Below the pieces are notes generated by a model. That model was given only the letters and a program-made list of their open reading frames with translations. It did no database searches and was not told where the DNA came from. Of a DNA stretch of 64,000 bases, positions 22,934 to 64,000 are shown one piece after another; the stretch's first letter is position 1, and each line of letters begins with the position of its first letter. The translations under genes and the position numbers were made by a program. The stretch is from Ryuthela nishihirai (taxonomy: Eukaryota; Arthropoda; Arachnida; Araneae; Heptathelidae): assembly GCA_038380435.1 (NCBI GenBank), contig JAWZYU010000689.1, positions 1 through 64,000 of the forward strand. Reading direction: 5' to 3'.

Positions 22934-22941
22934 ATATAGAG
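22934..22941. repeat. hAT target-site duplication, left copy
   Basis: ATATAGAG directly precedes the hAT left end and is repeated exactly at 26,142-26,149. Eight bp is the standard hAT duplication length. Confidence 0.95.
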
Positions 22942-27098: not shown

Positions 27099-28668
27099 AA
27101 AACCTGAATAAAATCTTTAAACAAATTTATTTCCCATTTTTTTCCTACAATAGACAAAATTTAAAGAAGTTAAGATATTTTTCTTTTGCTTGTTACCCCC
27201 CAATTTCCAAATATTCTGAATAATAAAAGATAACAATCTCTGTTCACAATAGCCAAATAATTTGGAACTCCTATATTATAAAAATCAAAGGAACTTAAAG
27301 TGCATAACGTTTGTGAGATCATATTTATAAAATTGTTCTCCAAAAACTAAACCAGAAAACCTATTTACCTAATTATTTTCACCACAGATTTTAGTACATG
27401 TATATATATATATTTCTTGCACGCAAAACAAGTCCATGGTCCTATGTCGAATGCTTAGGACTTCTAGATTAATAAAAGAATTACCTAGGAATATGAAATG
27501 CTGAAGAATTATTTCAGATCTTTAAGTGTGTGAAATGTCTACCTTAATATAAACAAACCAAACATTTTTCTCAAGAATGTGTAATCTTACATTACCAAGA
27601 TCTTATTTCTCTACAAATTAAAATGTAACACTATACTTACTCTTTTCAATCATATACAAATGACGGGATATCAACGGCATTTTTAATAATGCTCTACCCT
27701 TAACAAAACGAATCTTAATCAAACAATAACATCAAGCAAATAATTGGATTAATCATTTTCAACATCACGTTTTTGGACTTTCATTAATGTATATTCACTC
27801 TTGTGTCCATCATGGTCATTACCGTTGTCTTCTCCTTTATTGCCTTTTCCTTTATGGTCATGATCTTTTTGCCGTTTTCACCGCCTAAAAATTAGGTACT
27901 CATAAAAATCTGCACTAATAGCTAAGAATGAGAACCTTTACAGCGATCTACTTATCATAAATGAAATAAACTTAAGGAAACACCAATGTCTCTAACAAAC
28001 GCACTTTGTATACAAACTCTATCCTTCTTATGATCATGAAAGAATTAAACACAGTCATCAAACACATTCCAAAAAATAGCTTCTTCCATTTTTTGATACA
28101 AAGAATTTTATTCCGTCTTTAACATTAGCTTCATGCAGTTAATATAAGGTTTACAGTTTCTGACCAAATCAAAAATCAAACATGAAAAGTGTGTATCATT
28201 AAAGAATTTGCCTTTATGATATTCAGCGCATTCAGCAAATTAATAATCCACTACATTGGATATCAAACAACGCTGAAAATAAATTATTGGTAACCCGTGA
28301 AAGTATTTTTGAGAGCCAATGTTTGCCAAAATAATTGTCTTAGTGAGCGTAATGGTTATTTTTGTTTGGTGTCATATTGAGAGAAGCATATTGTTTCAAG
28401 AATGTTCTCTCATAATATGACTATTTATCCCAGATGCTCAAAAACACATCCCAACAGGTGTTTAGAAAAAATTCAATATTTTTATTTCTGCCAGGAAATA
28501 ACCGACATACATAAAAATAGTTTTTACTCCATCGGTTAGAATAAGATATAAAATTGAGAAATATCATACATCTTATTACCATTTCATTCCAAGGAATACT
28601 TAACAAATTAATATCAGATTTTGAATATTCTCCAAAAAATTACTTCGACAAATTAATTGACTCTTTAC
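27099..28668 (-). repeat. edge monomer with a deletion of about 430 bp
   Basis: The first monomer is about 1,570 bp long. The piece that in other copies lies between TTTCATTAAT and the donor half of the exon is missing: TTTCATTAATGTATATT runs straight into exon sequence near 27,800. Divergence from the other monomers is also higher here, as expected at an array edge that no longer takes part in exchange. Confidence 0.8.
27801..27884 (-). pseudogene. family B exon B1, truncated and frameshifted
   Basis: The acceptor TTTTTAG is intact. The exon starts GEN as in gamma copies, but GGCAAGAAAGAT of the other copies is GGCAAAAAGAT here, a one-base loss that throws the rest out of frame to a TAA near 27,785. 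The donor half of the exon is deleted. This is a dead edge copy. Confidence 0.85.
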
Positions 28669-29777
28669 CTGAATAAAACCTTTAAACAAATTTATTTCTA
28701 TTGTTTTTCCTACAATAGGCAAAATTAAAAAAGTCAAGATATTTCTCTCCTACTCCTTACCCTCTAATTTCCAAATATTCTGATTAAAAAAAAGGTAACA
28801 CTCCCTGTTAAAAATATTCAAGTAAATTGCAACTCCTATATTATAATAATCAAAGGACTTTGATGTGCATGATGTTTGTGAAAAAATATATAAGGAATTG
28901 TTTTCCCACAACTATACAAGAAATCCTATTTATTTCCGTAATTATTTTCATCACAATTTAGAGTATACATATATATTGCTTTAATGCAAAACTAGTGTAT
29001 GGTAATATGTCGGAAGTCTATGACTTCTGGATTAATAAAAGAATTACCAAGAAATATGAAATGCTGAGGATTATTTGGGATTTTTAATTTAAATTGTGAA
29101 ATATATGACCTAATTTAAACAAACCAAACTCCTTTCTCAAACCTGTGTAATCTTACATTACCAAGAGGTTATTTCTCTAGAAAATATAATATAGCAATAT
29201 TCTCTCCTCTATCATATACAAATGACGGAATATCAACAGCATTTTAAATAATGTTCTACCCTTAACTAAACGAATCTTAATCAAACAATTACATCAAGGA
29301 AATAATTCCATTCATCGTTTTCAACATCAAGTTTTTCGACTTTCATTAATATATTTCTATCAAATATCATCCTTCATGTGGATTAACATGCTGAAATGTT
29401 CTCTCAGGTTATTTCAGGTATGCTGTAGTGTAGAGAATATAAAGAATTTCTACCTCTTCCAAAAATTACTAATTAATTGATGCACACCAAATTCCACGTA
29501 CATAAAATCATTCAACAAATAAAATTTCAAGATTATAAAAATTTGTCGCTACGAAATAAATATACATTATTTCCACTCTCGTCATTGTAAACAAGAAATT
29601 CCTTTCTGCAACAATTTGTCAAAAAACAAAAAGAATAATTTGTAAAATAGAACTCACCATATATTTTCCTACACAAAGCGTAGCTCATATATTCTGACAT
29701 ATTTACTAATATACAACAAAATTATTACATATTTACTTTTCTAAAGACAGTTGATATTGCATAAAATTTTAACTTAC

Positions 29778-29891
29778 TGTGTCGACCATGATCATTATCT
29801 TTACTCTTCTGACCATCATGGTCATTACCTTTTTCTTCTCCTTTATTGCCTTTTCCTTTATGGTCATGATCTTTCTTGCCGTTGTCGCCGC
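29778..29891 (-). CDS. family B exon B2 (alpha-like hybrid)
   Basis: 114 nt between TTTTTAG acceptor and GTAAGT donor; phase 1 at both ends. I number the 37 whole codons of alpha copy B3 as the reference (G1 D2 N3 G4 K5 K6 D7 H8 ... G35 G36 Q37). B2 differs by D19E, G36R and Q37H. Its start is alpha-type (GDN), while its last codon and donor are beta/gamma-like, so it may be a recombinant. The product is a Gly/Asp/Asn/His/Lys-rich, probably disordered segment. It is the last intact family B exon before the edge. Confidence 0.75.
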
Positions 29892-31771
29892 CTAAAAATT
29901 AGGTTCTCATAAAAATCTGCACTAATAGCTAAGAATGAGAACATTTAGAGCGATCTACTTATCATAAATGAAATAAACTTAAACAAACACCAATGTCTCT
30001 AACAAACGTAATTTGTTTACAACCTCTATCCTTCTTATGATCAGAAAAGAACTAAACACAGTCATCAAACACATTCGAAAAAATCGCTTCTTCCATTCTT
30101 TGATACAAAGACTTTTATTCCTTCTTTTACGTTAGCTTCACGCACTTAATACACGGTTTACAGTTTCTGACCAAATCGAAAATATGTGTATCATTAAAGA
30201 ATTTGCCTTTATGATATTCAGCGTATTCAGCAAATTAATAATCCACTACATTGGATATCAAACAACGTTAAAAATAAATTGGTGGTAACCCGTAAAAGTA
30301 ATTTTCAGAGCAAATGTTTGCCAAAATAATTGTCTTAGTTAGCGCAATGGTTATTTTTGTTTGGTGTCATCATAAGAGAAGCATATTGCTTCAAGAATGT
30401 TCTCTAATAATATGACTATTTATCTCAGATGCTCAAAAACTCATCCCAACAGGTGTTTGAAAAAAATTCAATATTTTTATTTCTGTCAGGAAATAACCGA
30501 CATACATAAAAATAGTTTTTACTCCATCGGTTAAAATAAGGTATAAAATTGAGAATTATCATACATCTTATTACCATTTCATTCCAAGGAATACTTAGCA
30601 AATTGGTATCAGATTTTGAATGCTCTCCAAAAAGTTACTCCGGCAAATTATTTGACTCTTTACATGAATAAATCCTTTAAACAAATTTATTTCTATTTTT
30701 TTCCTACAAAAGACAAAAATAAAAATATTAAGATATTTCTCTCCTGCTTCTTACCCTCTACTTTCCAAATATTCTGATTGAAAAAGATAACACTCTCTTT
30801 TAATAATATTCAAATAAATTGCAACTCCTATATTATAATAATCAAAAGACTTCGATGTGCGTGATGTTTGTTAAAACATATTTAAGAAATTGTTTTCCCA
30901 CAACTATAGAAGAAATACTATTTATTTCCCTAATTATTTTCATCACAATTTAGAGTATACATATATATTACTTGCATGCAAAACAAGTGCATGGTAATAT
31001 GTCAGATGTCTATGACTTCTGGATTAATAAAAGAATTGCCAAAAAATATGAAATGCTGAGGAATTATTTGGGACATTTTATTGAAATTGTGAAATATATG
31101 ACCTAATTTAAACAAACCAAACTACTTTCTCAAAACTGTGTAATCTTACATTACCAAGAGGATATTTCTCTAGAAAATATAATATAACAATATTCTCTCC
31201 TCTATCATATACAACTGACGGGATATCAACAGCAATTTTAAATAATGTTCTACCCTTAACTAAACGAATCTTAATCAAACAATTACATCAAGGAAATAAT
31301 TGCATTAATCGTTTTCAACATCAAGTTTTTCGACTTTCATTAATATGTTTCTATCAAATATCATCCTTCATGTGGATTAACATGCTTAAAGGTTCTGTCA
31401 GGTTATTTCAGGTATGCTGTAGTGTAGAGAATATAAAGAATTTCTACCTCTTCCAAAAATTACTAATTAATTCATACACACCAAATTGCACGTACATAAA
31501 ATCATTCAACAAATTAAATTTCAAGATTATAACAATTTCTTGCTACGACATAAATATACATTATTTCCTCTCTCGTCATTGTAAACAAGAAATTCCTTTC
31601 TGCAACAATTTGTCAAAAAACAAAAAGAATAATTTGCAAAATAGAACTCACCATATATTTTCCTACACAAAGCGTAGCTCGTATATTCTGACATATTTAC
31701 TAATATACAACAAAATTATTACATATTTACTTTTCTAAAAACAGTTGATACTGCATAAAATTTTAACATAC

Positions 31772-31885
31772 TCTGTCCACCATGATCATTATCTTTACTC
31801 TTCTGACCATCATGGTCATTACCTTTGTCTTCTCCTTTATTGCCTTTTCCTTTATGGTCATGATCTTTCTTGCCGTTGTCGCCGC
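31772..31885 (-). CDS. family B exon B3 (alpha reference)
   Basis: 114 nt, phase 1-1, acceptor TTTTTAG, donor GTATGT. After the split codon the peptide begins GDNGKKDHDHKGKGNKG, continues EDKGNDHDGQKSKDNDHGGQ. His and Asp alternate in three clusters (KDHDHK, NDHDG, DNDHG), which might bind metal ions; that is a guess from composition. No Cys, no aromatic and almost no hydrophobic residue is present. B7 has the identical exon. Confidence 0.8.
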
Positions 31886-33767
31886 CTAAAAATTAGGTAC
31901 TCATAAAAATCTGCACTAATAGCTAAGAATGAGAACATTTAGAGCGATCTACTTATCATAAATGAAATAAACTTAAACAAACACCAATGTCTCTAACAAA
32001 CGCAATTTGTTTAAAACCTCTATCCTTCTTATGATCAGAAAACAACTAAATACAGTCATCAAACACATTCGAAAAAATCGCTTCTTCCATTCTTTGATAC
32101 AAACACTTTTATTCCTTCTTTTACGTTAGCTTCACGAACTTAATACACGGTTTACAGTTTCTGACCAAATCAAAAATATGTGTATCATTAAAGAATTTGC
32201 CTTTATGATATTCAGCGTATTCAGTAAATTAATAATCCACTACATTGGATATCAAACAACGTTAAAAATAAATTGGTGGTAACCCGTAAAAGTAATTTTC
32301 AGAGCAAATGTTTGCCAAAATAATTGTCTTAGTTAGCGCAATGGTTATTTTTGTTTGGTGTCATCATAAGAGAAGCATATTGCTTCAAGAATGTTCTCTA
32401 ATAATATGACTATTTATCTCAGATGCTCAAAAACTCATCCCAACAGGTGTTTGAAAAAAATTCAATATTTTTATTTCTGTCAGGAAATAACCGACATACA
32501 TAAAAATAGTTTTTACTCCATCGGTTAAAATAAGGTATAAAATTGAGAATTATCATACAACGTATTACTATTTCATTCCAAGGAATACTTAGCAAATTAG
32601 TATCAGATTTTGAATACTCTCCAAAATGTTACTCCGGCAAATTATTTGACTCTTTACATGAATAAATCCTTTAAACAAATTTATTTCTATTTTTTTTCCT
32701 ACAAAAAGCAAAATTAAAAACGTTAAGATATTTCTCTCCTGCTTCTTACCCTCTACATTCCAAATATTCTGATTGAAAAAGATAACACTCTCTTTCAATA
32801 ATGTTCAAATAAATTGCAACTCCTATATTATAATAATCAAAGGACTTCGATGTGCGTGATGTTTTCGAAAACACATTTAAGAAATTGTTTTCCCACAACT
32901 ATAGAAGAAATACTATTTATTTCCCTAATTATTTTCATCACAATTTAGAGTATACATATATATATTACTTGCACGCAAAACAAGTGCATGGTAATATGTC
33001 AGACGTCTATGACTTCTGGATTAATAAAAGAATTGCCAAAAAATATGAAATGCTGAGGAATTATTTGGGACTTTTTATTGAAATTGTGAAATATATGACC
33101 TAATTTAAACAAACCAAACTACTTTCTCAAAACTGTGTAATCTTACATTACCAAGAGGTTATTTCTCTAGAAAATATAATATAACAATATTCTCTCCTCT
33201 ATCATATACAACTGACAGGATATCAACAGCATTTTAAATAATGTTCTACCCTTAACTAAACGAATCTTAATCAAACAATTACATCAAGGAAATAATTCCA
33301 TTAATCGTTTTCAACATCACGTTTTTCGACTTTCATTAATATATTTCTATCAAATATCATCCTTCATGTGGATTAACATGCTAAAATGTTCTGCCAGGTT
33401 ATTTCAGGTATGGTGTAGTGTAGAGAATATAAAGAATTTCTACCTCTTCCAAAAATTACTAATTAATTGATACACACCAAATTCCACATACATAAAATCA
33501 TTCAACAAATAAAATTTCAAGATTATAACAATTTGTTCCTACAACATAAATATACATTATTTCCACTCTCGTCATTGTCAACAAGAAATTCCTTTGTGCA
33601 TCAATTTGTCAAAAAACAGAAAGAATAATTTGTAAAATAGAACTCACCATATATTTTCCTACACAAAGCGTAGCTCGTATATTCTGACATATTTACTAAT
33701 ATAAAACAAAATTATTACATATTTACTTTTCTAAAAACAGTTGATACTACATAAAATTTTAACTTAC

Positions 33768-33881
33768 TGTGTCCACCATGATCATTATCTTTACTACTGT
33801 GTCCATCATGGTCATTACATTTCTCTTCTCCCTTATTGCCTTTTCCTTTATTGTCATGATCTTTCTTACCGTTTTCACCTC
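33768..33881 (-). CDS. family B exon B4 (beta)
   Basis: 114 nt, phase 1-1, donor GTAAGT. The exon starts GA where alpha and gamma have GC. Differences from B3: D2E, H10N, D19E, G21C, Q27H, K28S, Q37H. The Cys at position 21 is characteristic of beta copies and is the only Cys in the repeat, so cross-linking between repeats is conceivable. Confidence 0.8.
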
Positions 33882-35755
33882 CTAAAAATTAGGTACTCAT
33901 AAAAATCTGCACTAATAGCTAAGAATGAGAACATTTACAGCGATCTACTAATCATAAATGAAATAAACTTAGAGAAACACCAATGTCTCTAACAAACGCA
34001 ATTTGTTTGCAAACTCTATCCTTCTCATGATCAGAAAAGGACTAAACACAGTCATCAAACACACTCGAAAAAAAAACTTCTTCCATTCTTTGATACAAAG
34101 ACTTTTATTCCTTCTTTTACGTTAGCTTCACGCACTTAATACACGGTTTACAATTTCTGACCAAATCAAAAATGTGTGTATCATCAAAGAATTTGCCTTT
34201 ATGATATTCAGCATGTTCAGCAAATTAATAATCCACTACATTGGATATAAAACAACGTTGAAAATAAATTGTTGGTAACCGTGAAAGTGATTTTGAGAGC
34301 AAATGGTTGCCAAAATAATTGTTTTAGTTAGCGTAATGGTTATTTTTGTTTGGTGTCATATTAAGAGAAGCATATTGCTTCAAGAATGTCCTCTCATAAC
34401 ATGACTATTTATCTCAGATGCTTAAAAACTCATCGCAAGATGTGTTTGGAAAAAATTCAATATTTTTATTTCTGGCAGGAAATAACCGACATACATAAAA
34501 ATAATTTTTACTAAATCGGTTAAAATAAGATATAAAATTGATAAATATCATACATCTTATTACCATTTCATTCCAAGGAATACTTAGCAAATTAGTATCA
34601 GATTTTGAATACTCTCCAAAAAATTATTTCGGCAAATTATTTGAATCTTTACCTGAATAAATCCTTTAAACAAATTTATTTCTATTTTTTCCTACAAAAG
34701 GCAAAATTAAAAAAGTTAAGATATTTCTCTCCTGCTTCTTACCCTCTACTTTCCAAATATTCTGATTGAAAAAGTTAACATTCCCTCTTAATAATATTCA
34801 AATAAATTGCAACTCCTATATTATAATAATCAAAGGACTTCGATGGGCGTGATGATTGTGAAATCATATTTAAGAAATTGATTTCCCACAACTATAGAAG
34901 AAATACTATTTATTTCCCTAATTATTTTCATCACAATTTATAGTATATATATATTACTTGCATGCAAACAAATGGATGGTAATATGTCGGTTGTCTATGA
35001 CTTCTGGATTAATAAAAGAATTACCATGAAATATGAAATGCTCAGAAATTATTTGGGATTTTTAGTTTAAATTGTGAAAAATATAACCTAATTTAAACAA
35101 ACCAAACTACTTTCTCAAAACTGTGTAATCTTACATTACCAAGAGGTTATTTCTCTAAAAAATATAATATACCAATATTTTCTCCTCTATCATATGCACC
35201 TGACGGGATATCAACAGCATTTTAAATAATGTTCTACCCTTAACTAAACGAATCTTAATCAAACAATTACATCAAGGAAATAATTCCATTAATCGTTTTC
35301 AACATCAAGCTTTTCGACTTTCATTAATATATTTCTATCAAATATCATCCTACATGTGGATTAACATGCTGAAATGTTCTCTCAGGTTATTTCAGGTATG
35401 CTGTACTGTAGAGAATATAAAGAATTTCTACCTCTTCCAAAAATTACTAATTAATTGATACACACCAAATTCCACGTACATAAAATCATTCAACAAATAA
35501 AATTTCAAGATTATAACAATTTGTTGCTACCACATAAATATACATTATTTCCACTCTCGTCATTGTAAACAAGAAATTCATTTCTACAAAAATTTGTCAA
35601 AAAACAAAAAGAATAATTTGTAAAATAGAACTCACCATATATTTTCCTACACAAAGCGTAGCTCGTATATTCTGACATATTTATTAATATACAACAAAAT
35701 TATTACATATTTACTTTTCTAAAAACAGATGATACTGCATAAAATTTTAACTTAA

Positions 35756-35869
35756 TGTGTCCACCATGATCATTATCTTTACTCTTGTGTCCATCATGGT
35801 CATTACCTTTGTCTTCTCCTTTATTGCCTTTTCCTTTATCGTCATGATCTTTCTTGCCGTTTTCACCGC
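35756..35869 (-). CDS. family B exon B5 (gamma, main donor lost)
   Basis: The 114-nt frame is open: D2E, H10D, Q27H, Q37H versus B3. The base after the exon is T, so the usual GTAAGT donor reads TTAAGT and cannot work as a GT donor. A GT nine bases upstream (GATCATG/GTGGAC), conserved in all copies, would give a 105-nt, still symmetric exon. Otherwise the exon may be skipped without frame damage. Confidence 0.65.
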
Positions 35870-37746
35870 CTAAAAATTAGGTACTCATAAAAATCTGCAC
35901 TAATAGCTAAGAATGAGAACATTTACAGCGATCTACTTATCATAAATGAAATAAACTTAAACAAACACCAATGTCTCTAACAAAGGCAATTTGTACACAA
36001 CCTCTATCCCTCTTATGATCAGAAAAGAACTAAACACAGTCATCAAACACATTCGAAAAAATCGCTTCTTCCATTCTTTGATACAAAGACATTTATTCCA
36101 TCTTTTACGTTAGCTTCACGCATTTAATACACGGTTTACTGTTTCTGACCAAATCAAAAATATGTGTATAATTAAAGAATTTGCCTTTATGATATTCAGC
36201 GTATTCAACAAATTAATTATCCACTACATTGGATATCAAACAACTTTGAAAATAAATTGTTCGTAACCCGTGAAAGTAATTTTGAGAGCAAATGGTTGCC
36301 AAAATAATTGTCTTAGTTAGCGTAATGGTTATTTTTATTTGGTGTCATCATAAGAGAAGCATATTGCTTCAAGAATGTTCTCTAATAATATGACTATTTA
36401 TCTCAGATGCTCAAAAACTCATCCCAACAGGTGTTTGGAAAAAATTCAACATTTTTTTTTCTACCAGGAAATTACCGACATACATAAAATTAGTTTTTAC
36501 TCCATCGTTTAAAATACGATATAAAATTGAGAATTATCATACATCTTATTACCATTTCATTCCAAGGAATACTTAGCAAATTAGTATCAGATTTTGAATA
36601 CTCTCCAAAAAATTATTATTGCAAATTATTTGACCCTTTACCTGAATAAATCCGTTAAACAAATTTATTTCTATTGTTTTTCCTACAAAAGGCAAAATTA
36701 AAATAGTTAAGATATTTCTCTCCTGCTTCTTACCCTCTACTTTCCAAATATTCTGATTGAAAAAGTTAACACTCCCTCTTAATAATATTCAAATAAATTG
36801 CAACTCCTATATTATAATAATCAAAGGACTTCGATGGGCGTGATGTTTGTGAAATCATATTTAAGAAATTGATTTCCCACATATATAGAAGAGATACTAT
36901 TTATTTCCCTACTTAATTTCATCACAATTTATAGTATATATATATTACTTGCATGCAAACAAATGCATTGTAATATGTCGGTTGTCTATGACTTCTGGAT
37001 TAATAAAAGAATTACCAAAAAATATGAAATGCTGAGGAATTATTTGGGATTTTTAATTAAAATTGTAAAATATATGACCTAATTTAAACAAACCAAACTA
37101 CTTTCTCAAAACTGTGTAATCTTACATTACCAAGAGGTTATTTCTCTAGAAAATATAATATAGCAATATTCTCTCCTCTATCATATACAAATGACGGAAT
37201 ATCAACAGCATTTTAAATAATGTTCTACCCTTAACTAAACGAATCTTAATCAAACAATTACATCAAGGAAATAATTGCATTAATCGTTTTCAACATCAAC
37301 TTTTTCGACTTTCATTAATATATTTCTATTAAATATCATCCTTCATGTGGATTAACATGCTAAAATGTTCTGTCAGGTTATTTCAGGTATGCTGTAGTGT
37401 AGAGAATATAAAGAATTTCTACCTCTTCCAAAAATTACTAATTAATTCATACACACCAAATTGCAGGTACATAAAATCATTCAACAAATTAAATTTCAAG
37501 ATTATAACAATTTCTTGCTACGACATAAATATACATTATTTCCTCCCTCGTCATTGTAAACAAGAAATTCCTTTCTGCAACAATTTGTCAAAAAACAAAA
37601 AGAATAATTTGCAAAATAGAACTCACCATATATTTTCCTACACAAAGCGTAGCTCGTATATTCTGACATATTTACTAATATACAACAAAATTATTACATA
37701 TTTACTTTTCTAAAAACAGTTGATACTGCATAAAATTTTAACATAC

Positions 37747-37860
37747 TCTGTCCACCATGATCATTATCTTTACTCTTCTGACCATCATGGTCATTACCTT
37801 TGTCTTCTGCTTTATTGCCTTTTCCTTTATGGTCATGATCTTTCTTGCCGTTGTCGCCGC
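37747..37860 (-). CDS. family B exon B6 (alpha)
   Basis: 114 nt, donor GTATGT. One change from B3: G17A. It lies in a monomer that is a near-identical tandem duplicate of the next one (see 35,870-39,851). Confidence 0.78.
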
Positions 37861-39737
37861 CTAAAAATTAGGTACTCATGAAAATCTGCACTAATAGCTA
37901 AGAGTGAGAACATTTAGAGCGATCTACTTATCATAAATGAAATAAACTTAAACAAACACCAATGTCTCTAACAAAGGCAATTTGTACACAACCTCTATCC
38001 CTCTTATGATCAGAAAAGAACTAAACACAGTCATCAAACACATTCGAAAAAATCGCTTCTTCCATTCTTTGATACAAAGACATTTATTCCATCTTTTACG
38101 TTAGCTTCACGCATTTAATACACGGTTTACTGTTTCTGACCAAATCAAAAATATGTGTATAATTAAAGAATTTGCCTTTATGATATTCAGCGTATTCAAC
38201 AAATTAATTATCCACTACATTGGATATCAAACAACTTTGAAAATAAATTGTTCGTAACCCGTGAAAGTAATTTTGAGAGCAAATGGTTGCCAAAATAATT
38301 GTCTTAGTTAGCGTAATGGTTATTTTTATTTGGTGTCATCATAAGAGAAGCATATTGCTTCAAGAATGTTCTCTAATAATATGACTATTTATCTCAGATG
38401 CTCAAAAACTCATCCCAACAGGTGTTTGGAAAAAATTCAACATTTTTTTTTCTACCAGGAAATTACCGACATACATAAAATTAGTTTTTACTCCATCGTT
38501 TAAAATACGATATAAAATTGAGAATTATCATACATCTTATTACCATTTCATTCCAAGGAATACTTAGCAAATTAGTATCAGATTTTGAATACTCTCCAAA
38601 AAATTATTATTGCAAATTATTTGACCCTTTACCTGAATAAATCCGTTAAACAAATTTATTTCTATTGTTTTTCCTACAAAAGGCAAAATTAAAATAGTTA
38701 AGATATTTCTCTCCTGCTTCTTACCCTCTACTTTCCAAATATTCTGATTGAAAAAGTTAACACTCCCTCTTAATAATATTCAAATAAATTGCAACTCCTA
38801 TATTATAATAATCAAAGGACTTCGATGGGCATGATGTTTGTGAAATCATATTTAAGAAATTGATTTCCCACATATATAGAAGAGATACTATTTATTTCCC
38901 TACTTAATTTCATCACAATTTATAGTATATATATATTACTTGCATGCAAACAAATGCATTGTAATATGTCGGTTGTCTATGACTTCTGGATTAATAAAAG
39001 AATTACCAAAAAATATGAAATGCTGAGGAATTATTTGGGATTTTTAATTAAAATTGTAAAATATATGACCTAATTTAAACAAACCAAACTACTTTCTCAA
39101 AACTGTGTAATCTTACATTACCAAGAGGTTATTTCTCTAGAAAATATAATATAGCAATATTCTCTCCTCTATCATATACAAATGACGGAATATCAACAGC
39201 ATTTTAAATAATGTTCTACCCTTAACTAAACGAATCTTAATCAAACAATTACATCAAGGAAATAATTGCATTAATCGTTTTCAACATCAACTTTTTCGAC
39301 TTTCATTAATATATTTCTATTAAATATCATCCTTCATGTGGATTAACATGCTAAAATGTTCTGTCAGGTTATTTCAGGTATGCTGTAGTGTAGAGAATAT
39401 AAAGAATTTCTACCTCTTCCAAAAATTACTAATTAATTCATACACACCAAATTGCAGGTACATAAAATCATTCAACAAATTAAATTTCAAGATTATAACA
39501 ATTTCTTGCTACGACATAAATATACATTATTTCCTCCCTCGTCATTGTAAACAAGAAATTCCTTTCTGCAACAATTTGTCAAAAAACAAAAAGAATAATT
39601 TGCAAAATAGAACTCACCATATATTTTCCTACACAAAGCGTAGCTCGTATATTCTGACATATTTACTAATATACAACAAAATTATTACATATTTACTTTT
39701 CTAAAAACAGTTGATACTGCATAAAATTTTAACATAC

Positions 39738-39851
39738 TCTGTCCACCATGATCATTATCTTTACTCTTCTGACCATCATGGTCATTACCTTTGTCTTCTC
39801 CTTTATTGCCTTTTCCTTTATGGTCATGATCTTTCTTGCCGTTGTCGCCGC
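39738..39851 (-). CDS. family B exon B7 (alpha)
   Basis: 114 nt, donor GTATGT; identical in sequence to B3 although 7,966 bp away, and differing from its duplicate B6 by one base in the exon. Confidence 0.78.
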
Positions 39852-41730: not shown

Positions 41731-41844
41731 TGTGTCCACCATGATCATTATCTTTATTATTGTGTCCCTCATGGTCATTACATTTCTCTTCTCCCTTATT
41801 GCCTTTTCCTTTATTGTCATGATCTTTCTTACCGTTTTCACCTC
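41731..41844 (-). CDS. family B exon B8 (beta)
   Basis: 114 nt, starts GA, donor GTAAGT. Changes from B3: D2E, H10N, D19E, G21C, D25E, Q27H, K28N, S29N, Q37H. Identical to B11, its counterpart one higher-order unit away. Confidence 0.78.
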
Positions 41845-43718: not shown

Positions 43719-43832
43719 TGTGTCCACCATGATCATTATCTTTACTCTTGTGTCCATCATGGTCATTACCTTTGTCTTCTCCTTTATTGCCTTTTTCTTT
43801 ATCGTCATGATCTTTCTTGCCGTTTTCACCGC
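43719..43832 (-). CDS. family B exon B9 (gamma, main donor lost)
   Basis: Open 114-nt frame with D2E, H10D, G12E, Q27H, Q37H. The donor position reads TTAAGT as in B5. The same upstream GT is available. Confidence 0.65.
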
Positions 43833-45710: not shown

Positions 45711-45824
45711 TCTGTCCACCATGATCATTATCTTTACTCTTCTGACCATCATGGTCATTACCTTTCTCTTCTCCTTTATTGCCTTTTCCTTTATGGTCAT
45801 GATCTTTCTTGCCGTTGTCGCCGC
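45711..45824 (-). CDS. family B exon B10 (alpha)
   Basis: 114 nt, donor GTATGT. One amino-acid change from B3: D19E. Confidence 0.78.
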
Positions 45825-47703: not shown

Positions 47704-47817
47704 TGTGTCCACCATGATCATTATCTTTATTATTGTGTCCCTCATGGTCATTACATTTCTCTTCTCCCTTATTGCCTTTTCCTTTATTGTCATGATCTTT
47801 CTTACCGTTTTCACCTC
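47704..47817 (-). CDS. family B exon B11 (beta)
   Basis: 114 nt, starts GA, donor GTAAGT; same sequence as B8, including the Cys at position 21 and the pair N28-N29. Confidence 0.78.
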
Positions 47818-49689: not shown

Positions 49690-49803
49690 TGTGTCCACCA
49701 TGATCATTATCTTTACTCTTGTGTCCATCATGGTCATTACCTTTGTCTTCTCCTTTATTGCCTTTTCCTTTATCGTCATGATCTTTCTTGCCGTTTTCAC
49801 CGC
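49690..49803 (-). CDS. family B exon B12 (gamma, main donor lost)
   Basis: Exon identical to B5. The donor position reads TTAGGT, carrying the gamma GT-to-TT change plus a further A-to-G. Confidence 0.65.
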
Positions 49804-51675: not shown

Positions 51676-51789
51676 TCTGTCCACCATGATCATTATCTTT
51701 ACTCTTCTGACCATCATGGTCATCACCTTTGTCTTCTCCTTTATTGCCTTTTCCTTTATGGTCATGATCTTTCTTGCCGTTGTCGCCGC
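51676..51789 (-). CDS. family B exon B13 (alpha)
   Basis: 114 nt, donor GTATGT. One change from B3: N22D, shared only with B15, which marks the two as products of the dimer duplication. Confidence 0.78.
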
Positions 51790-53668
51790 CTAAAAATTAG
51801 GTACTCATAAAAATCTGCACTAATAGCTAAGAATGAGAACATTTAGAGCGATCTACTTATCATAAATGAAATAAACTTAAACAAACACCAATGTCTCTAA
51901 CAAACGCAATTTGTTTAAAACCTCTATCCTTCTTATGATCAGAAAACAACTAAATACAGTCATCAAACACATTCGAAAAAATCGCTTCTTCCATTCTTTG
52001 ATACAAAGACTTTTATTCCTTCTTTTACGTTAGCTTCACGAACTTAATACACGGTTTACAGTTTCTGACCAAATCAAAAATATGTGTATCATTAAAGAAT
52101 TTGCCTTTATTATATTCAGCATATTCAGCAAATTAATAATCCACTACATTGGATATCAAACAACGTTAAAAATAAGTTGGTGGTAATGCGTAAACGTAAT
52201 TTTCAGAGCAAATGTTTGCCAAAATAATTGTCTTAGTTAGCGCAATGGTTATTTTGTTTGGTGTCATCATAAGAGAAGCATATTGCTTCAAGAATGTTCT
52301 CTAATAATATGACTATTTATCTCAGATGCTCAAAAACTCATCCCAACAGGTGTTTGAAAAAAATTCAATATTTTTATTTCTGTCAGGAAATAACCGACAT
52401 ACATAAAAATAGTTTTTACTCCATCGGTTAAAATAAGGTATAAAATTGAGAATTATCATACATCTTATTACCATTTCATTTCAAGGAATACTTAGCAAAT
52501 TAGTATCAGATTTTGAATACTCTCCAAAATATTACTCCGGCAAATTATTTGACGCTTTACATGAATAAATCCTTTAAACAATTTTATTTCTATTTTTTTT
52601 CCTACAAAAAGCAAAATTAAAAACGTTAAGATATTTCTCTCCTGCTTCTTACCCTCTACTTTCCAAATATTCTGATTGAAAAAGATAACACCCTCTTTCA
52701 ATAATATTCAAATAAATTGCAACTCCTATATTATAATAATCAAAGGACTTCGATGTGCGTGATGTTTTCGAAAACACATTTAAGAAATTGTTTTCCCACA
52801 ACTATAGAAGAAATACTATTTATTTCCCTAATTATTTTCATCACAATTTAGAGTATACATATATATTACTTGCATGCAAAACAAGTGCATGGTAATATGT
52901 CAGATGTCTATGATTTCTGGATTAATAAAAGAATTGCCAAAAAATATGAAATGCTGAGGAATTATTTGGGACTTTTTATTGAAATTGTGAAATATATGAC
53001 CTAATTTAAACAAACCAAACTACTTTCTCAAAACTGTGTAATCTTACATTACCAAGAGGTTATTTCTCTAGAAAATATAATATAACAATATTCTCTCCTC
53101 TATCATATACAACTGACGGGATATCAACAGCATTTTAAATAATGTTCTACCCTTAACTAAACGAATCTTAATCAAACAATTACATCAAGGAAATAATTCC
53201 ATTAATCGTTTTCAACATCACGTTTTTCGATTTTCATTAATATATTTCTATCAAATATCATACTTCATGTGGATTAACATGCTAAAATGTTCTGCCAGGT
53301 TATTTCAGGTATGGTGTAGTGTAGAGAATATAAAGAATTTCTACCTCTTCCAAAAATTACTAATTAATTGATACACACCAAATTCCACATACATAAAATC
53401 ATTCAACAAATAAAATTTCAAGATTATAACAATTTGTTCCTACAACATAAATATACATTATTTCCACTCTCGTCATTTTAAACAAGAAATTCCTTTGTGC
53501 AACAATTTGTCAAAAAACAAAAAGAATAATTTGTAAAATAGAACTCACCATATATTTTCCTACACAAAGCGTAGCTCGTATATTCTGACATATTTACTAA
53601 TATAAAACAAAATTATTACATATTTACTTTTCTAAAAACAGTTGATACTACATAAAATTTTAACTTAC

Positions 53669-53782
53669 TGTGTCCACCATGATCATTATCTTTACTATTG
53701 TGTCCATCATGGTCATTACATTCCTCTTCTCCCTTATTGCGTTTTCCTTTATTGTCATGATCTTTCTTGCCGTTTTCACCGC
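53669..53782 (-). CDS. family B exon B14 (beta/gamma recombinant)
   Basis: 114 nt, donor GTAAGT. The 5' end of the exon and its upstream intron are gamma (GC start, GGC at codon 4, gamma-type intron reading AAAGGCAATTTGTACACAACC), whereas from about codon 8 on it is beta (H10N, D19E, G21C, donor GTAAGT). Further changes are G14R, K20E, Q27H and K28N. The exchange point thus lies inside the first 20-30 nt of the exon. Confidence 0.78.
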
Positions 53783-55660
53783 CTAAAAATTAGGTACTCA
53801 TAAAAATCTGCACTAATAGCTAAGAATGAGAACATTTACAGCGATCTACTTATCATAAATGAAATAAACTTAAACAAACACCAATGTCTCTAACAAAGGC
53901 AATTTGTACACAACCTCTATCCCTCTTATGATCAGAAAAGAACTAAACACAGTCATCAAACACATTCGAAAAAATCGCTTCTTCCATTCTTTGATACAAA
54001 GACATTTATTCCATCTTTCACGTTAGCTTCACGCATTTAATACATGGTTTACTGTTTCTGACCAAATCAAAAATATCTGTATCATTAAAGAATTTGCCTT
54101 TATGATATTCAGCTTATTCAACAAATTAATTATCCACTACATTGGATATCAAACAACGTTGAAAATAAATTGTTGGTAACCCGTGAAAGTAATTTTGAGA
54201 GCAAATGGTTGCCAAAATAATTGTCTTAGTTAGCGTAACGGTTATTTTTATTTGGTGTCATCATAAGAGAAGCATATTGCTTCTAGAATGTTCTCTAATA
54301 ATATGACTATTTATCTCAGATGCTCAAAAACTCATCCCAACAGGTGTTTGGAAAAAATTCAACATTATTTTTTCTACCAGGAAATAACCGACATACATAA
54401 AATTAGTTTTTACTCCATCGTTTAAAATTCGATATAAAATTGAGAATTATCATACATCTTATTACCATTTCATTCCAAGGAATACTTACCAAATTAGTAT
54501 CAGATTTTGAATACTCTCCAAAAAATTACTACTGCAAATTATTCGACCCTTTACCTGAATAAATCCTTTAAACAAATTTATTTCTATTGTTTTTCCTACA
54601 AAAGGCAAAATTAAAATAGTTAAGATATTTCTCTCCTGCTTCTTACCCTCTACTTTCCAAATATTCTGATTAAAAAAGATAACACCCTCTGTTAAAAATA
54701 TTCAAATAAATTGCAACTCCTATATTATAATAATCAAAGGACTTCGATGTGCGTGATGTTTGTTAAAACATATTTAAGAAATAGTTTTCCCACAACTATA
54801 GAAGAAATAGTATTTATTTCCCTAATTATTTTCATCACAATTTAGAGTATATATATATTACTTGCATGCAAAACAAGTGCATGGTAATATGTCAGATGTC
54901 TATGACTTCTGGATTAATAAAAGAATTACCAAAAAATATGAAATGCTGAGGAATTATTTGGGATTTTAAATTTAAATTGTGAAATATATGACCTAATTTA
55001 AACAAACCAAATTACTTTCTCAAAACTGTGTAATCTTACATTACCAAGAGGTTATTTCTCTAGAAAATATAATATAGCAATATTCTCTCCTCTATCATAT
55101 ACAAATGACGGAATATCAACAGCATTTTAAATAATGTTCTACCCTTAACTAAACGAATCTTAATCAAACAATTACATCAAGGAAATAATTGCATTAATCG
55201 TTTTCAACATCAACTTTTTCGACTTTCATTAATATATTTCTATTAAATATCATCCTTCATGTGGATTAACATGCTAAAATGTTCTGTCAGGTTATTTCAG
55301 GTATGCTGTAGTGTAGAGAATATAAAGAATTTCTACCTCTTCCAAAAATTACTAATTAATTCATACACACCAAATTGCAGGTACATAAATTCATTCAACA
55401 AATTAAATTTCAAGATTATACCAATTTCTTGCTACGACATAAATATACATTATTTCCTCCCTCGTCATTGTAAACAAGAAATTCCTTTCTGCAACAATTT
55501 GTCAAAAAACAAAAAGAATAATTTGTAGAATAGAACTCACCATATATTTTCCAACACAAAGCGTAGCTCGAATATTCTGATATATTTACTAATATACAAC
55601 AAAATTATTACATATTTACTTTTCTAAAAACAGTTGATACTGCATAAAATTTTAACATAC

Positions 55661-55774
55661 TCTGTCCACCATGATCATTATCTTTACTCTTCTGACCATC
55701 ATGGTCATCACCTTTGTCTTCTCCTTTATTGCCTTTTCCTTTATGGTCATGATCTTTCTTGCCGTTGTCGCCGC
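55661..55774 (-). CDS. family B exon B15 (alpha)
   Basis: 114 nt, donor GTATGT, identical to B13 (N22D). Confidence 0.78.
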
Positions 55775-57653
55775 CTAAAAATTAGGTACTCATAAAAATC
55801 TGCACTAATAGCTAAGAATGAGAACATTTAGAGCGATCTACTTATCATAAATGAAATAAACTTAAACAAACACCAATGTCTCTAACAAACGCAATTTGTT
55901 TAAAACCTCTATCCTTCTTATGATCAGAAAACAACTAAATACAGTCATCAAACACATTCGAAAAAATCGCTTCTTCCATTCTTTGATACAAAGACTTTTA
56001 TTCCTTCTTTTACGTTAGCTTCACGAACTTAATACACGGTTTACAGTTTCTGACCAAATCAAAAATATGTGTATCATTAAAGAATTTGCCTTTATTATAT
56101 TCAGCATATTCAGCAAATTAATAATCCACTACATTGGATATCAAACAACGTTAAAAATAAGTTGGTGGTAACGCGTAAACGTAATTTTCAGAGCAAATGT
56201 TTGCCAAAATAATTGTCTTAGTTAGCGCAATGGTTATTTTGTTTGGTGTCATCATAAGAGAAGCATATTGCTTCAAGAATGTTCTCTAATAATATGACTA
56301 TTTATCTCAGATGCTCAAAAACTCATCCCAACAGGTGTTTGAAAAAAATTCAATATTTTTATTTCTGTCAGGAAATAACCAACATACATAAAAATAGTTT
56401 TTACTCCATCGGTTAAAATAAGGTATAAAATTGAGAATTATCATACATCTTATTACCATTTCATTCCAAGGAATACTTAGCAAATTAGTATCAGATTTTG
56501 AATACTCTCCAAAATATTACTCCGGCAAATTATTTGACGCTTTACATGAATAAATCCTTTAAACAATTTTATTTCTATTTTTTTTCCTACAAAAAGCAAA
56601 ATTAAAAACGTTAAGATATTTCTCTCCTGCTTCTTACCCTCTACTTTCCAAATATTCTGATTGAAAAAGATAACACCCTCTTTCAATAATATTCAAATAA
56701 ATTGCAACTCCTATATTATAATAATCAAAGGACTTCGATGTGCGTGATGTTTTCGAAAACACATTTAAGAAATTGTTTTCCCACAACTATAGAAGAAATA
56801 CTATTTATTTCCCTAATTATTTTCATCACAATTTAGAGTATACATATATATTACTTGCATGCAAAACAAGTGCATGGTAATATGTCAGATGTCTATGATT
56901 TCTGGATTAATAAAAGAATTGCCAAAAAATATGAAATGCTGAGGAATTATTTGGGACTTTTTATTGAAATTGTGAAATATATGACCTAATTTAAACAAAC
57001 CAAACTACTTTCTCAAAACTGTGTAATCTTACATTACCAAGAGGTTATTTCTCTAGAAAATATAATATAACAATATTCTCTCCTCTATCATATACAACTG
57101 ACGGGATATCAACAGCATTTTAAATAATGTTCTACCCTTAACTAAACGAATCTTAATCAAACAATTACATCAAGGAAATAATTCCATTAATCGTTTTCAA
57201 CATCACGTTTTTCGATTTTCATTAATATATTTCTATCAAATATCATACTTCATGTGGATTAACATGCTAAAATGTTCTGCCAGGTTATTTCAGGTATGGT
57301 GTAGTGTAGAGAATATAAAGAATTTCTACCTCTTCCAAAAATTACTAATTAATTGATACACACCAAATTCCACATACATAAAATCATTCAACAAATAAAA
57401 TTTCAAGATTATAACAATTTGTTCCTACAACATAAATATACATTATTTCCACTCTCGTCATTTTAAACAAGAAATTCCTTTGTGCAACAATTTGTCAAAA
57501 AACAAAAAGAATAATTTGTAAAATAGCACTCACCATATATTTTCCTACACAAAGCGTAGCTCGTATATTCTGACATATTTACTAATATAAAACAAAATTA
57601 TTACATATTTACTTTTCTAAAAACAGTTGATACTACATAAAATTTTAACTTAC

Positions 57654-57767
57654 TGTGTCCACCATGATCATTATCTTTACTATTGTGTCCATCATGGTCA
57701 TTACATTCCTCTTCTCCCTTATTGCGTTTTACTTTATTGTCATGATCTTTCTTGCCGTTTTCACCGC
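57654..57767 (-). CDS. family B exon B16 (beta/gamma recombinant)
   Basis: 114 nt, donor GTAAGT. Same recombinant structure as B14, plus G12V. It is one dimer length (3,985 bp) from B14. Confidence 0.78.
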
Positions 57768-59645
57768 CTAAAAATTAGGTACTCATAAAAATCTGCACTA
57801 ATAGCTAAGAATGAGAACATTTACAGCGATCTACTTATCATAAATGAAATAAACTTAAACAAACACCAATGTCTCTAACAAAGGCAATTTGTACACAATC
57901 TCTATCCCTCTTATGATCAGAAAAGAACTAAACACAGTCATCAAACACATTCGAAAAAATCGCTTCTTCCATTCTTTGATACAAAGACATTTATTCCATC
58001 TTTCACGTTAGCTTCACGCATTTAATACATGGTTTACTGTTTCTGACCAAATCAAAAATATCTGTATCATTAAAGAATTTGCCTTTATGATATTCAGCGT
58101 ATTCAACAAATTAATTATCCACTACATTGGATATCAAACAACGTTGAAAATAAATTGTTGGTAACCCGTGAAAGTAATTTTGAGAGCAAATGGTTGCCAA
58201 AATAATTGTCTTAGTTAGCGTAATGGTTATTTTTATTTGGTGTCATCATAAGAGAAGCATATTGCTTCAAGAATGTTCTCTAATAATATGACTATTTATC
58301 TCAGATGCTCAAAAACTCATCCCAACAGGTGTTTGGAAAAAATTCAACATTATTTTTTCTACCAGGAAATAACCGACATACATAAAATTAGTTTTTACTC
58401 CATCGTTTAAAATACGATATAAAATTGAGAATTATCATATATCTTATTACCATTTCATTCCAAGGAATACTTACCAAATTAGTATCAGATTTTGAATACT
58501 CTCCAAAAAATTACTACTGCAAATTATTCGACCCTTTACCTGAATAAATCCTTTAAACAAATTTATTTCTATTGTTTTTCCTACAAAAGGCAAAATTAAA
58601 ATAGTTAAGATATTTCTCTCCTGCTTCTTACCCTCTACTTTCCAAATATTCTGATTAAAAAAGATAACACCCTCTGTTAAAAATATTCAAATAAATTGCA
58701 ACTCCTATATTATAATAATCAAAGGACTTCGATGTGCGTGATGTTTGTTAAAACATATTTAAGAAATAGTTTTCCCACAACTATAGAAGAAATAGTATTT
58801 ATTTCCCTAATTATTTTCATCACAATTTAGAGTATATATATATTACTTGCATGCAAAACAAGTGCATGGTAATATGTCAGATGTCTATGACTTCTGGATT
58901 AATAAAAGAATTACCAAAAAATATGAAATGCTGAGGAATTATTTGGGATTTTAAATTTAAATTGTGAAATATATGACCTAATTTAAACAAACCAAACTAC
59001 TTTCTCAAAACTGTGTAATCTTACATTACCAAGAGGTTATTTCTCTAGAAAATATAATATAGCAATATTCTCTCCTCTATCATATACAAATGACGGAATA
59101 TCAACAGCATTTTAAATAATGTTCTACCCTTAACTAAACGAATCTTAATCAAACAATTACATCAAGGAAATAATTGCATTAATCGTTTTCAACATCAACT
59201 TTTTCGACTTTCATTAATATATTTCTATTAAATATCATCCTTCATGTGGATTAACATGCTAAAATGTTCTGTCAGGTTATTTCAGGTATGCTGTAGTGTA
59301 GAGAATATAAAGAATTTCTACCTCTTCCAAAAATTACTAATTAATTCATACACACCAAATTGCAGGTACATAAAATCATTCAACAAATTAAATTTCAAGA
59401 TTATAACAATTTCTTGCTACGACATAAATATACATTATTTCCTCCCTCGTCATTGTAAACAAGAAATTCCTTTCTGCAACATTTTGTCAAAAAACAAAAA
59501 GAATAATTTGTAAAATAGAACTCACCATATATTTTCCTACACAAAGTGTAGCTCGTATATTCTGACATATTTACTAATATACAACAAAATTATTACATAT
59601 TTACTTTTCTAAAAACAGTTGATACTGCATAAAATTTTAACATAC

Positions 59646-59759
59646 TCTGTCCACCATGATCATTATCTTTACTATTCTGACCATCATGGTCATTACCTTT
59701 GTCTTCTCCTTTATTGCCTTTTCCTTTATGGTCATGATCTTTCTTGCCGTTGTCGCCGC
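59646..59759 (-). CDS. family B exon B17 (alpha)
   Basis: 114 nt, donor GTATGT. One change from B3: K28N, a beta-like residue in an otherwise alpha exon, suggesting a small conversion. Confidence 0.78.
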
Positions 59760-61638
59760 CTAAAAATTAGGTACTCATAAAAATCTGCACTAATAGCTAA
59801 GAATGAGAACATTTAGAGCGATCTACTTATCATAAATGAAATAAACTTAAACAAACACCAATGTCTCTAACAAACGCAATTTGTTTAAAACCTCTATCCT
59901 TCTTATGATCAGAAAACAACTAAATACAGTCATCAAACACACTCGAAAAAAACGCTTCTTCCATTCTTTGATACAAAGACTTTTTTTCCTTCTTTTACGT
60001 TAGCTTCACGAACTTAATACACGGTTTACAGTTTCTGACCAAATCAAAAATATGTGTATCATTAAAGAATTTGACTTTATGATATTCAGCATATTCAGCA
60101 AATTAATAATCCACTACATTGGATATCAAACAACGTTAAAAATAAATTGGTGGTAACCCGTAAAAGTAATTTTCAGAGCAAATGTTTGCCAAAATAATTG
60201 TCTTAGTTAGCGCAATGGTTATTTTTGTTTGGTGTCATCATAAGAGAAGCATATTGCTTCAAGAATGTTCTCTAATAATATGACTATTTATCTCAGATGC
60301 TCAAAAACTCATCCCAACAGGTGTTTGAAAAAAATTCAATATTTTTATTTCTGTCAGGAAATAACCGACATACATAAAAATAGTTTTTACTCCATCGGTT
60401 AAAATAAGGTATAAAATTGAGAATTATCATACAACTTATTACTATTTCATTCCAAGGAATACTTAGCAAATTAGTATCAGATTTTGAATACTCTCCAAAA
60501 TATTACTCCGGCAAATTATTTGACTCTTTACATGAATAAATCCTTTAAACAAATTTATTTCTATTTTTTTTCCTACAAAAAGCAAAATTAAAAACGTTAA
60601 GATATTTCTCTCCTCCTTCTTACCCTCTACTTTCCAAATATTCTGATTGAAAAAGATAACACTCTCTTTCAATAATATTCAAATAAATTGCAACTCCTAT
60701 ATTATAATAATCAAAGGACTTCGATGTGCGTGATGTTTTCGAAAACACATTTAAGAAATTGTTTCCCACAACTATAGAAGAAATACTATTTATTTCCCTA
60801 ATTATTTTCATCACAATTTAGAGTATACGTATATATTACTTGCATGCAAAACAAGTGCATGGTAATATGTCAGATGTCTATGACTTCTGGATTAATAAAA
60901 GAATTGCCAAAAAATATGAAATGCTGAGGAATTATTTGGGACTTTTTATTGAAATTGTGAAATATATGACCTAATTTAAACAAACCAAACTACTTTCTCA
61001 AAACTGTGTAATCTTACATTACCAAGAGGTTATTTCTCTAGAAAATATAATATAACAATATTCTCTCCTCTATCATATACAACTGACGGGATATCAACAG
61101 CATTTTAAATAATGTTCTACCCTTAACTAAACGAATCTTAATCAAACAATTACATCAAGGAAATAATTCCATTAATCGTTTTCAACATCAGGTTTTTCGA
61201 CTTTCATTAATATATTTCTATCAAATATCATCCTTCATGTGGATTAACATGCTAAAATGTTCTGGCAGGTTATTTCAGGTATGGTGTAGTGTAGAGAATA
61301 TAAAGAATTTCTACCTCTTCCAAAAATTACTAATTAATTGATACACACCAAATTCCACATACATAAAATCATTCAACAAATAAAATTTCAAGATTATAAC
61401 AATTTGTTCCTACAACATAAATATACATTATTTCCACTCTCGTCATTTTAAACAAGAAATTCCTTTGTGCAACAATTTGTCAAAAAACAAAAAGAATAAT
61501 TTGTAAAATAGAACTCACCATATATTTTCCTACACAAAGCGTAGCTCGTATATTCTGACATATTTACTAATATAAAACAAAATTATTACATATTTATTTT
61601 TCTAAAAACATTTGATACTACATAAAATTTTAACTTAC

Positions 61639-61752
61639 TGTGTCCACCATGATCATTATCTTTACTATTGTGTCCATCATGGTCATTACATTCCTCTTCT
61701 CCCTTATTGCGTTTTCCTTTATTGTCATGATCTTTCTTACCGTTTTCACCTC
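61639..61752 (-). CDS. family B exon B18 (beta)
   Basis: 114 nt, donor GTAAGT, GA start. It shares G14R, K20E, G21C and K28N with B14 and B16 but keeps the beta 5' end, so it is the likely beta parent type of those recombinants. Confidence 0.78.
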
Positions 61753-63626
61753 CTAAAAATTAGGTACTCATAAAAATCTGCACTAATAGCTAAGAATGAG
61801 AACATTTACAGCGATCTACTAATCATAAATGAAATAAACTTAAAGAAACATCAATGTCTCTAACAAACGCAATTTGTTTACAAACTCTATCCTTCTCATG
61901 ATCAGAAAAGGACTAAACACAGTCATCAAACACACTCGAAAAAAAAACTTCTTCCATTCTTTGATACAAAGACTTTTATTCCTTCTTTTACGTTAGCTTC
62001 ACGCACTTAATACACGGTTTACAATTTCTGACCAAATCGAAAATGTGTGTATCATCAAAGAATTTGCCTTTATGATATTCAGCATGTTCAGCAAATTAAT
62101 AATCCACTACATTGGATATAAAACAACGTTGAAAATAAATTGTTGGTAACCGTGAAAGTGATTTTGAGAGCAAATGGTTGCCAAAATAATTGTTTTAGTT
62201 AGCGTAATGGTTATTTTTGTTTGGTGTCATATTAAGAGAAGCATATTGCTTCAAGAATGTCCTCTCATAACATGACTATTTATCTCAGATGCTCAAAAAC
62301 TCATCGCAAGATGTGTTTGGAAAAAATTCAATATTTTTATTTCTGGCAGGAAATAACCGACTGACATAAAAATAATTTTTACTCCATCGGTTAAAATAAG
62401 ATATAAAATTGATAAATATCATACATCTTATTACCATTTCATTCCAAGGAATACTTAGCAAATTAGTATCAGATTTTGAATACTCTCCAAAAAATTATTT
62501 CGGCAAATTATTTGAATCTTTACTTGAATAAATCCTTTAAACACATTTATTTCTATTTTTTCCCACAAAAGGCAAAATTAAAAAAGTTAAGATATTTCTC
62601 TCCTGCTTCTTACCCTCTACTTTCCAAATATTCTGATTGAAAAAGTTAACACTCCCTCTTAATAATATTCAAATAAATTGCAACTCCTATATTATAATAA
62701 TCAAAGGACTTCGATGGGCGTGATGTTTGTGAAATCATATTTAAGAAATTGATTTCCCACAACTATAGAAGAAATACTATTTATTTCCTTAATTATTTTC
62801 ATCACAATTTATAGTATATATATATTACTTGCATGCAAACAAATGCATGGTAATATGTCGGTTGTCTATGACTTCTGGATTAATAAAAGAATTACCATGA
62901 AATATGAAATGCTCAGAAATTATTTGGGATTTTTAGTTTAAATTGTGAAAAATATAACCAAATTTAAACAAACCAAACTACTTTCTCAAAACTGTGTAAT
63001 CTTACATTACCAAGAGGTTATTTCTCTAAAAAATATAATATACCAATATTTTCTCCTCTATCATATGCACCTGACGGGATATCAACAGCATTCTAAATAA
63101 TGTTCTACCATTAACTAAACGAATCTTAATCAAACAATTACATCAAGGAAATAATTCCATTAATCGTTTTCAACATCAAGTTTTTCGACTTTCATTAATA
63201 TATTTCTATCAAATATCATCCTACATGTGGATTAACATGCTGAAATGTTCTCTCAGGTTATTTCAGGTATGCTGTAGTGTAGAGAATATAAAGAATTTCT
63301 ACCTCTTCCAAAAATTACTAATTAATTGATACACACCAAATTCCACGTACATAAAATCATTCAACAAATAAAATTTCAAGATTATAACAATTTGTTGCTA
63401 CCACATAAATATACATTATTTCCACTCTCGTCATTGTAAACAAGAAATTCATTTCTACAACAATTTGTCAAAAAACAAAAAGAATAATTTGTAAAATAGA
63501 ACTCACCATATATTTTCCTACACAAAGCGTAGCTCGTATATTCTGACATATTTATTAATATAAAACAAAATTATTACATATTTACTTTTCTAAAAACAGA
63601 TGATACTGCATAAAATTTTAACTTAC

Positions 63627-63740
63627 TGTGTCCACCATGATCATTATCTTTACCCTTGTGTCCATCATGGTCATTACCTTTGTCTTCTACTTTATTGCCT
63701 TTTCCTTTATCGTCATGATCTTTCTTGCCGTTTTCACCGC
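63627..63740 (-). CDS. family B exon B19 (gamma, donor intact)
   Basis: 114 nt with H10D, D2E, G17V, Q27H, S29G, Q37H. Unlike B5, B9 and B12, its donor is a normal GTAAGT, so the donor loss happened within the gamma lineage. It is the most upstream exon visible; the gene's 5' end, promoter and any signal-peptide exon lie beyond the window. Confidence 0.75.
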
Positions 63741-64000
63741 CTAAAAATTAGGTACTCATAAAAATCTGCACTAATAGCTAAGAATGAGAACATTTACAGC
63801 GATCTACTTATCATAAATGAAATAAACTTAAACAAACACCAATGTCTCTAACAAAGGCAAATTGTACACAACCTCTATCCCTCTTATGATCAGAAAAGAA
63901 GTAAACACAGTCATCAAACACATTCGAAAAAATCGCTTCTTCCATTCTTTGATACAAGGACATTTATTCCATCTTTTACGTTAGCTTCACGCATTTAATA

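Follow-up and report, generated by a model that had tools for sequence, protein, structure and literature searches.

A tandem exon array in the spider Ryuthela nishihirai as a candidate coding macrosatellite

We analysed the first 64,000 nucleotides (nt) of the 86,000-bp contig JAWZYU010000689.1 (C689), in the following called the window, which belongs to a 3.11-Gb assembly of the spider Ryuthela nishihirai with 1,680 contigs. At positions 27,099-64,000 the minus strand of the window carries a tandem array, each unit of which consists of one 114-nt exon and ~1.9 kb of intron. According to its anatomy, this array (the young array, as opposed to an older one nearby) is probably the repeated middle of one multi-exon minus-strand gene and would thus be a coding macrosatellite, with a symmetric phase-1 exon plus a 1.9-kb intron as the unit.

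Architecture of the young array

The exact motif CCTAATTTTTAG/G is found 19 times on the minus strand of the window, from 63740 and 61752 down to 29891 and 27884. Seventeen of the 18 steps between the motifs measure 1986-1996 bp, as the initial annotation had stated for all of them; the last step (29891 to 27884) is 2007 bp long. The 18 full units in the window accordingly have lengths of 1,986-2,007 bp. In each of them the 114-nt segment is gapless and open, with a frame of 2 nt, 37 codons and 1 nt (phase 1 at both ends), and is preceded by AG; a GT donor follows in 15 of the 18. The G+C content is 40.3% across the 18 exons, compared to 28.4% across positions 29,892-63,740. The initial annotation had described the splice-like borders, the exact length, the open frame and the elevated G+C content in the same way, and the symmetric phase 1 it proposed applies not only to the young exons but also to three older exons and to exons on C7 (see below). 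In contrast, a class of 105-nt exons, which it also listed, was not found in the array; other exon lengths, namely 81, 81 and 72 nt, belong to the older array.

Whole-unit identity among the 18 full units is 93-99.8%, and the introns are as alike as the exons. The units sort into about three main types (A, B and C) plus edge variants. They are mostly arranged in A-B-C blocks of ~6 kb; some B-C pairs also occur, as does at least one recombinant unit. The 19th copy, at the edge of the array (27884), has a 1-nt deletion, a truncated end and no donor. The array and its exons in the window are:

27099..64000, minus strand: young tandem array of ~2-kb units, running on along C689 to ~84.3 kb
63627..63740, minus strand: exon type A, donor GTAAGT
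61639..61752, minus strand: exon type B, donor GTAAGT
59646..59759, minus strand: exon type C, donor GTATGT
57654..57767, minus strand: exon type B, donor GTAAGT
55661..55774, minus strand: exon type C, donor GTATGT
53669..53782, minus strand: exon type B, donor GTAAGT
51676..51789, minus strand: exon type C, donor GTATGT
49690..49803, minus strand: exon type A, donor lost (TTAGGT)
47704..47817, minus strand: exon type B, donor GTAAGT
45711..45824, minus strand: exon type C, donor GTATGT
43719..43832, minus strand: exon type A, donor lost (TTAAGT)
41731..41844, minus strand: exon type B, donor GTAAGT
39738..39851, minus strand: exon type C, donor GTATGT
37747..37860, minus strand: exon type C with A-like flanks (recombinant), donor GTATGT
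35756..35869, minus strand: exon type A, donor lost (TTAAGT)
33768..33881, minus strand: exon type B, donor GTAAGT
31772..31885, minus strand: exon type C-like, donor GTATGT
29778..29891, minus strand: exon of edge type, donor GTAAGT
27790..27884, minus strand: decayed edge copy with 1-nt deletion, truncated, no donor

Continuation on the contig and the upstream acidic exon

When the host assembly was searched with the young exon, 25 places were found, all of them on C689 (25 of 25 candidates scored). A 1.74-kb intron query gave 31 stretches, again all on C689, between 27,102 and 84,325 (27 of 27 candidates scored). The candidate counts of both searches are lower bounds; among the matches listed, no match to the young exon or the unit lies outside C689. 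The array exons reach C689:83,249 and comprise 24 open exons, six of them beyond the window, and one frameshifted copy. All 24 are exactly 114 nt long and preceded by AG, and 21 of them have the GT donor. Past 73.7 kb, transposon-like sequence interrupts the units. Thus, the extent of 27099-64000 given in the initial annotation is occupied by the array, but the exons extend as far as 83,249, and the older array at 18.05-22.9 kb had been missed.

On the same strand, 2.5 kb upstream of the array exon at 83,249, we found a Ser/Cys/Glu/Asp-rich exon (acidic exon, C689:85,757-86,000), which reads SCCESDESSSCCESDESSS...KKHLGKSGRSRQHHHK and ends in phase 1 at the donor AAAG/GTGAGT. Since this GTGAGT donor is in phase 1, too, it is plausible that the acidic exon and the array belong to one gene. 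The anatomy therefore supports the suggestion of the initial annotation that the gene is larger than the window. The acidic-exon region (601-bp query) is 88% identical to C7:58,379,542-58,380,153, where the related exon is complete, preceded by TTTTTAG and in phase 1 at both ends. A composition filter over C7:58.37-58.40 Mb revealed no further exon of the acidic type, a scan for signal-peptide-like sequences over the 9.5 kb that precede the acidic exon on C7 gave nothing, and the signal of S-x-E motifs in the acidic exon was weak (shuffle P 0.04 and 0.07). Downstream of the young array, only transposons and decayed older exons were detected. The contig start (window positions 1-2000) matched itself and a dispersed repeat of ~220 bp only, among the best 40 of 3634 candidates in the genome. 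C689 is exactly 86,000 bp long and ends within an exon, as if it had been cut during scaffolding.

The predicted product

Joining the acidic exon and the 24 array exons in silico, including the three without a donor, gives 993 residues without a stop. If spliced in this way, the product would consist of a Ser/Cys/Glu/Asp-rich stretch followed by at least 21-24 repeats of 38 residues, which are rich in Gly, Lys, Asp, Asn and His. The repeats contain 18.5% Lys, 17.5% Asp, 11.7% Asn, 11.6% His and 0.1% Ala, and Pro is absent. From this composition one may guess that the protein is disordered and charge-mixed, that it is secreted, that it serves in a matrix, a coating or a glue, and that it binds metal.

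The initial annotation knew of no named family for the repeat, and our searches agree with this. Five joined repeats had no match in Pfam up to an E value of 10, and no kringle domain; PDB sequences gave nothing. A protein database also yielded nothing (best 7,999 and 7,997 candidates by shared words, within length limits), which is a weak null result because a transposon protein of the window reached no more than 45% identity there. A scan for viral-contig patterns was likewise negative. In a literature search we found no array of such composition, by which we do not claim its absence from print.

The older array

A second, decayed array of the same orientation is located downstream of the young one:

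18047..22938, minus strand: older, decayed tandem array, 64-74% identity between exon-bearing copies
22667..22747, minus strand: older exon, 81 nt, phase 1-1, one in-frame stop, donor GTGAGT
20078..20158, minus strand: older exon, 81 nt, phase 1-1, open, ATGAGT at the donor position
18351..18422, minus strand: older exon, 72 nt, phase 1-1, open, ATGAAT at the donor position
26166..26424, minus strand: older-array intron fragment, between transposons and the young array

The three older exons are rich in Gly, Ser, His and Asp. Their sole indel measures 9 nt, compared to several indels of 1-2 nt and some longer ones in the flanks. Relatives of this array are present on C7 at 102.88-103.05 Mb, partly within a 92% duplication: C7:103.047-103.054 Mb (L023) and L022 are ~92% identical to C7:103.018-103.025 Mb, which places the older exon kind in segmental duplications. 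Across seven older-type exons, the donor position is GT in one, AT in four and GA in two. The same region of C7 contains a further exon of 57 nt with phase 1 at both ends, which reads HHGHPGSHGSDESGDENS and is followed by GTAAGT.

A profile comparison of young and older units with nhmmer gave no match. The exon end of one older copy can be aligned with the young unit over 34 columns, 25 of which are identical. This alignment does no more than suggest that the two arrays have a common origin, because many offsets score equally well (23, 9 and 78 of 399 for the three older copies). One older exon is identical at 93 of 93 positions in three copies (one on C689, two on C7) with less similar flanks; we do not take this as proof, the copies having been retrieved by matching that very exon. 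Inverted repeats are present within the older array at 20410-20598 (a 116-bp span with 91% and a 53-bp one with 87% identity).

Neighbouring elements

Two retrotransposons are located at 12867-15116 (minus strand) and 3808-5638 (plus strand); each contains RVT_1, and the second one has an RNase H match. At 24317-25861 on the plus strand, two long open reading frames (ORFs) without a Pfam match at E 0.001 separate the older array from its fragment; presumably they are hAT-transposase-like. Between the arrays lies an element at 26430-27098, and similar sequence, as judged by eye, precedes a retrotransposon at ~75-79 kb of C689. A tRNA-Thr(TGT)-like gene is present at 10678-10750 (plus strand), with a 60-bp inverted partner at 10439-10498.

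Does the array encode a protein?

The initial annotation had pointed out that all 18 full copies are open. We rejected openness as evidence for coding, and the 18 copies are not independent. Openness is weak evidence, because the copies stem from about three types, the 18 exons of the window differ by only 26 distinct substitutions (22 replacement, 4 silent and no stop), and shuffled units have open stretches, too: at least 37 open codons in some of the six frames were found in 300 of 300 shuffled units. Mapping the changes of all 24 exons onto an intron tree by parsimony gave 46 replacement, 10 silent and no stop events, compared to 31.3, 7.0 and 1.6 expected. Nothing in these counts points to purifying selection that preserves exact residues.

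The kinds of residues gave a signal specific to one frame. Among the 24 exons there are 40 distinct derived alleles, of which 30 are polar, 7 silent, one Ala, two hydrophobic and none a stop. Hydrophobic, aromatic or stop alleles were expected to make up 22%, and their shortage (P 0.004) persisted in the phase-1 frame in a recount without the split codon (P 0.007 for hydrophobic and stop changes), the residue classes having been picked after inspection of the data. The shortage is absent in the other five frames (P at least 0.11) and in nine gapless intron window-frames (P at least 0.09). The phase-1 frame is thus specifically short of stop and hydrophobic changes, which is modest support for coding, short of proof.

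A number of points weigh against the array being part of a gene. The choice of residue classes just mentioned is one of them, and restriction to the 26 changes of the window leaves the hydrophobic and stop shortage at P 0.06. The gene reading draws on DNA; the contig end cuts through the acidic exon, and neither a first nor a last exon was found on C689, so that both gene ends would lie outside it. Other points favour at the same time a non-coding macrosatellite with a fossil exon. On this view, unequal exchange multiplied part of a gene that was dead or on its way out, and nothing but the young age of the copies has kept the frame open. The absence of stops has a chance of 0.34 for the 26 substitutions and P 0.09 across the 24 exons; the ratio of replacement to silent changes is neutral (22:4 in 18 exons, 46:10 in 24). 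The exon even changes faster than the intron (0.49 vs 0.31 events per site; 56 exon events vs 40 expected after correction for composition, P 0.01). Three of the 24 exons on the contig (49803, 43832 and 35869) have TT instead of the GT donor, the edge copy is frameshifted, two of the three older exons lack GT and one has a stop, and the 86,000-bp contig lies outside any chromosome-size contig. A fossil exon is less easily reconciled with an upstream acidic exon in phase 1 with a consensus donor, with two further kinds of phase-1 exons on C7, with the scarcity of hydrophobic and stop changes in one frame only and with a unit that, among the matches listed, occurs on one contig. Further points in favour of a gene are the 24 open exons of identical length with their AG and mostly GT borders, the G+C content of the exons above that of their surroundings, the 1-1 phase and polar make-up common to the three older exons of the window and the 57-nt exon on C7, and the 9-nt length of the sole indel among the older exons. 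We regard the fossil exon as less likely than a gene, but as its main competitor.

Far less probable in our opinion is that the array is transcribed and acts as a non-coding or regulatory repeat, in which a segment of the intron matters and not the exon. Such a role would be in line with the variability along the unit, which is lowest at offsets ~420-780 after the exon start (0.03-0.17 variable columns per 60-column bin), compared to 0.18 and 0.22 in the exon bins. However, an Rfam scan of the window detected only a tRNA far from the young array, and 24 copies have kept the phase-1 frame open. A plus-strand gene over the same stretch (ORF of 208 amino acids, 31112-31738) was rejected: the ORF is full length in one of 18 units and has 126 amino acids in three others, and it shows similar variability at all three codon positions (24, 29 and 20 of 209).

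Returning to the array as the repeated middle of a gene, unequal crossing over would add or remove whole units without breaking the frame, because both ends of each exon are in phase 1. Exons without a donor could be skipped, again with the frame intact. Such an array would turn over, the young units being homogenised in three-unit (A-B-C) blocks and the older generation decaying on the downstream side. Taken further, it is a tentative reading, which we place slightly below an even chance, that the gene is active, that its repeat domain is an A-B-C higher-order-repeat macrosatellite renewed beside a dying older generation with other residues, and that it encodes an undescribed Gly/Lys/Asp/His polyampholyte with a Ser/Glu head, whose length depends on the allele. 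If transcribed, the locus would clearly illustrate how in nature a protein repeat evolves in the manner of a satellite array, with two generations of exon units next to each other, blocks of three types, lost splice sites that can be skipped and decayed edges. It would allow a direct test of how long introns and symmetric phase let a repeat protein change its length, and the product would represent a novel class of repeat protein, charged and rich in His.

Comparison with known systems

Macrosatellites and higher-order satellites consist of kilobase units arranged head to tail, form higher-order blocks and have decayed copies at their edges. The young array shares all three properties. In contrast to macrosatellites, each of its units has an exon with splice-like ends, a phase-compatible exon is adjacent, and no match outside the contig was listed. 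Like an intragenic exon-bearing variable number tandem repeat, the unit comprises a whole exon plus intron and is frame-neutral (24 of 24 open copies), and, at 93-99.8% identity between units, its introns resemble each other as much as its exons do.

The KIV-2 repeat of LPA has 5.6 kb per unit, 1 to ~40 highly homologous units and two short exons per unit (PMC11462820). Both arrays are built from exon plus intron units placed head to tail, in LPA inside a gene and in the spider probably so; the spider units measure 2 kb, number at least 24 and have one short exon. Unlike KIV-2, which encodes a folded kringle, the spider exon would encode a low-complexity polar repeat without a Pfam match, and LPA has been characterised for expression and allele length, whereas the spider array is known from the DNA of one assembly. 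In the Flagelliform and Argiope MaSp2 silk genes two intron types alternate, and the authors know of no other eukaryotic gene with such a pattern (PMC9779670). The likeness to these genes lies in low-complexity repeat coding units split by repetitive, homogenised introns, here of three types in the order A-B-C. According to the same paper, codons for Ala, Gly, Pro and Gln predominate in those silk repeats (PMC9779670); judged by this statement, the spider repeat differs from spidroins, since Ala accounts for 0.1% and Pro is missing. In summary, the array would work like LPA KIV-2 and the silk genes with homogenised introns, and by its product it belongs to neither.

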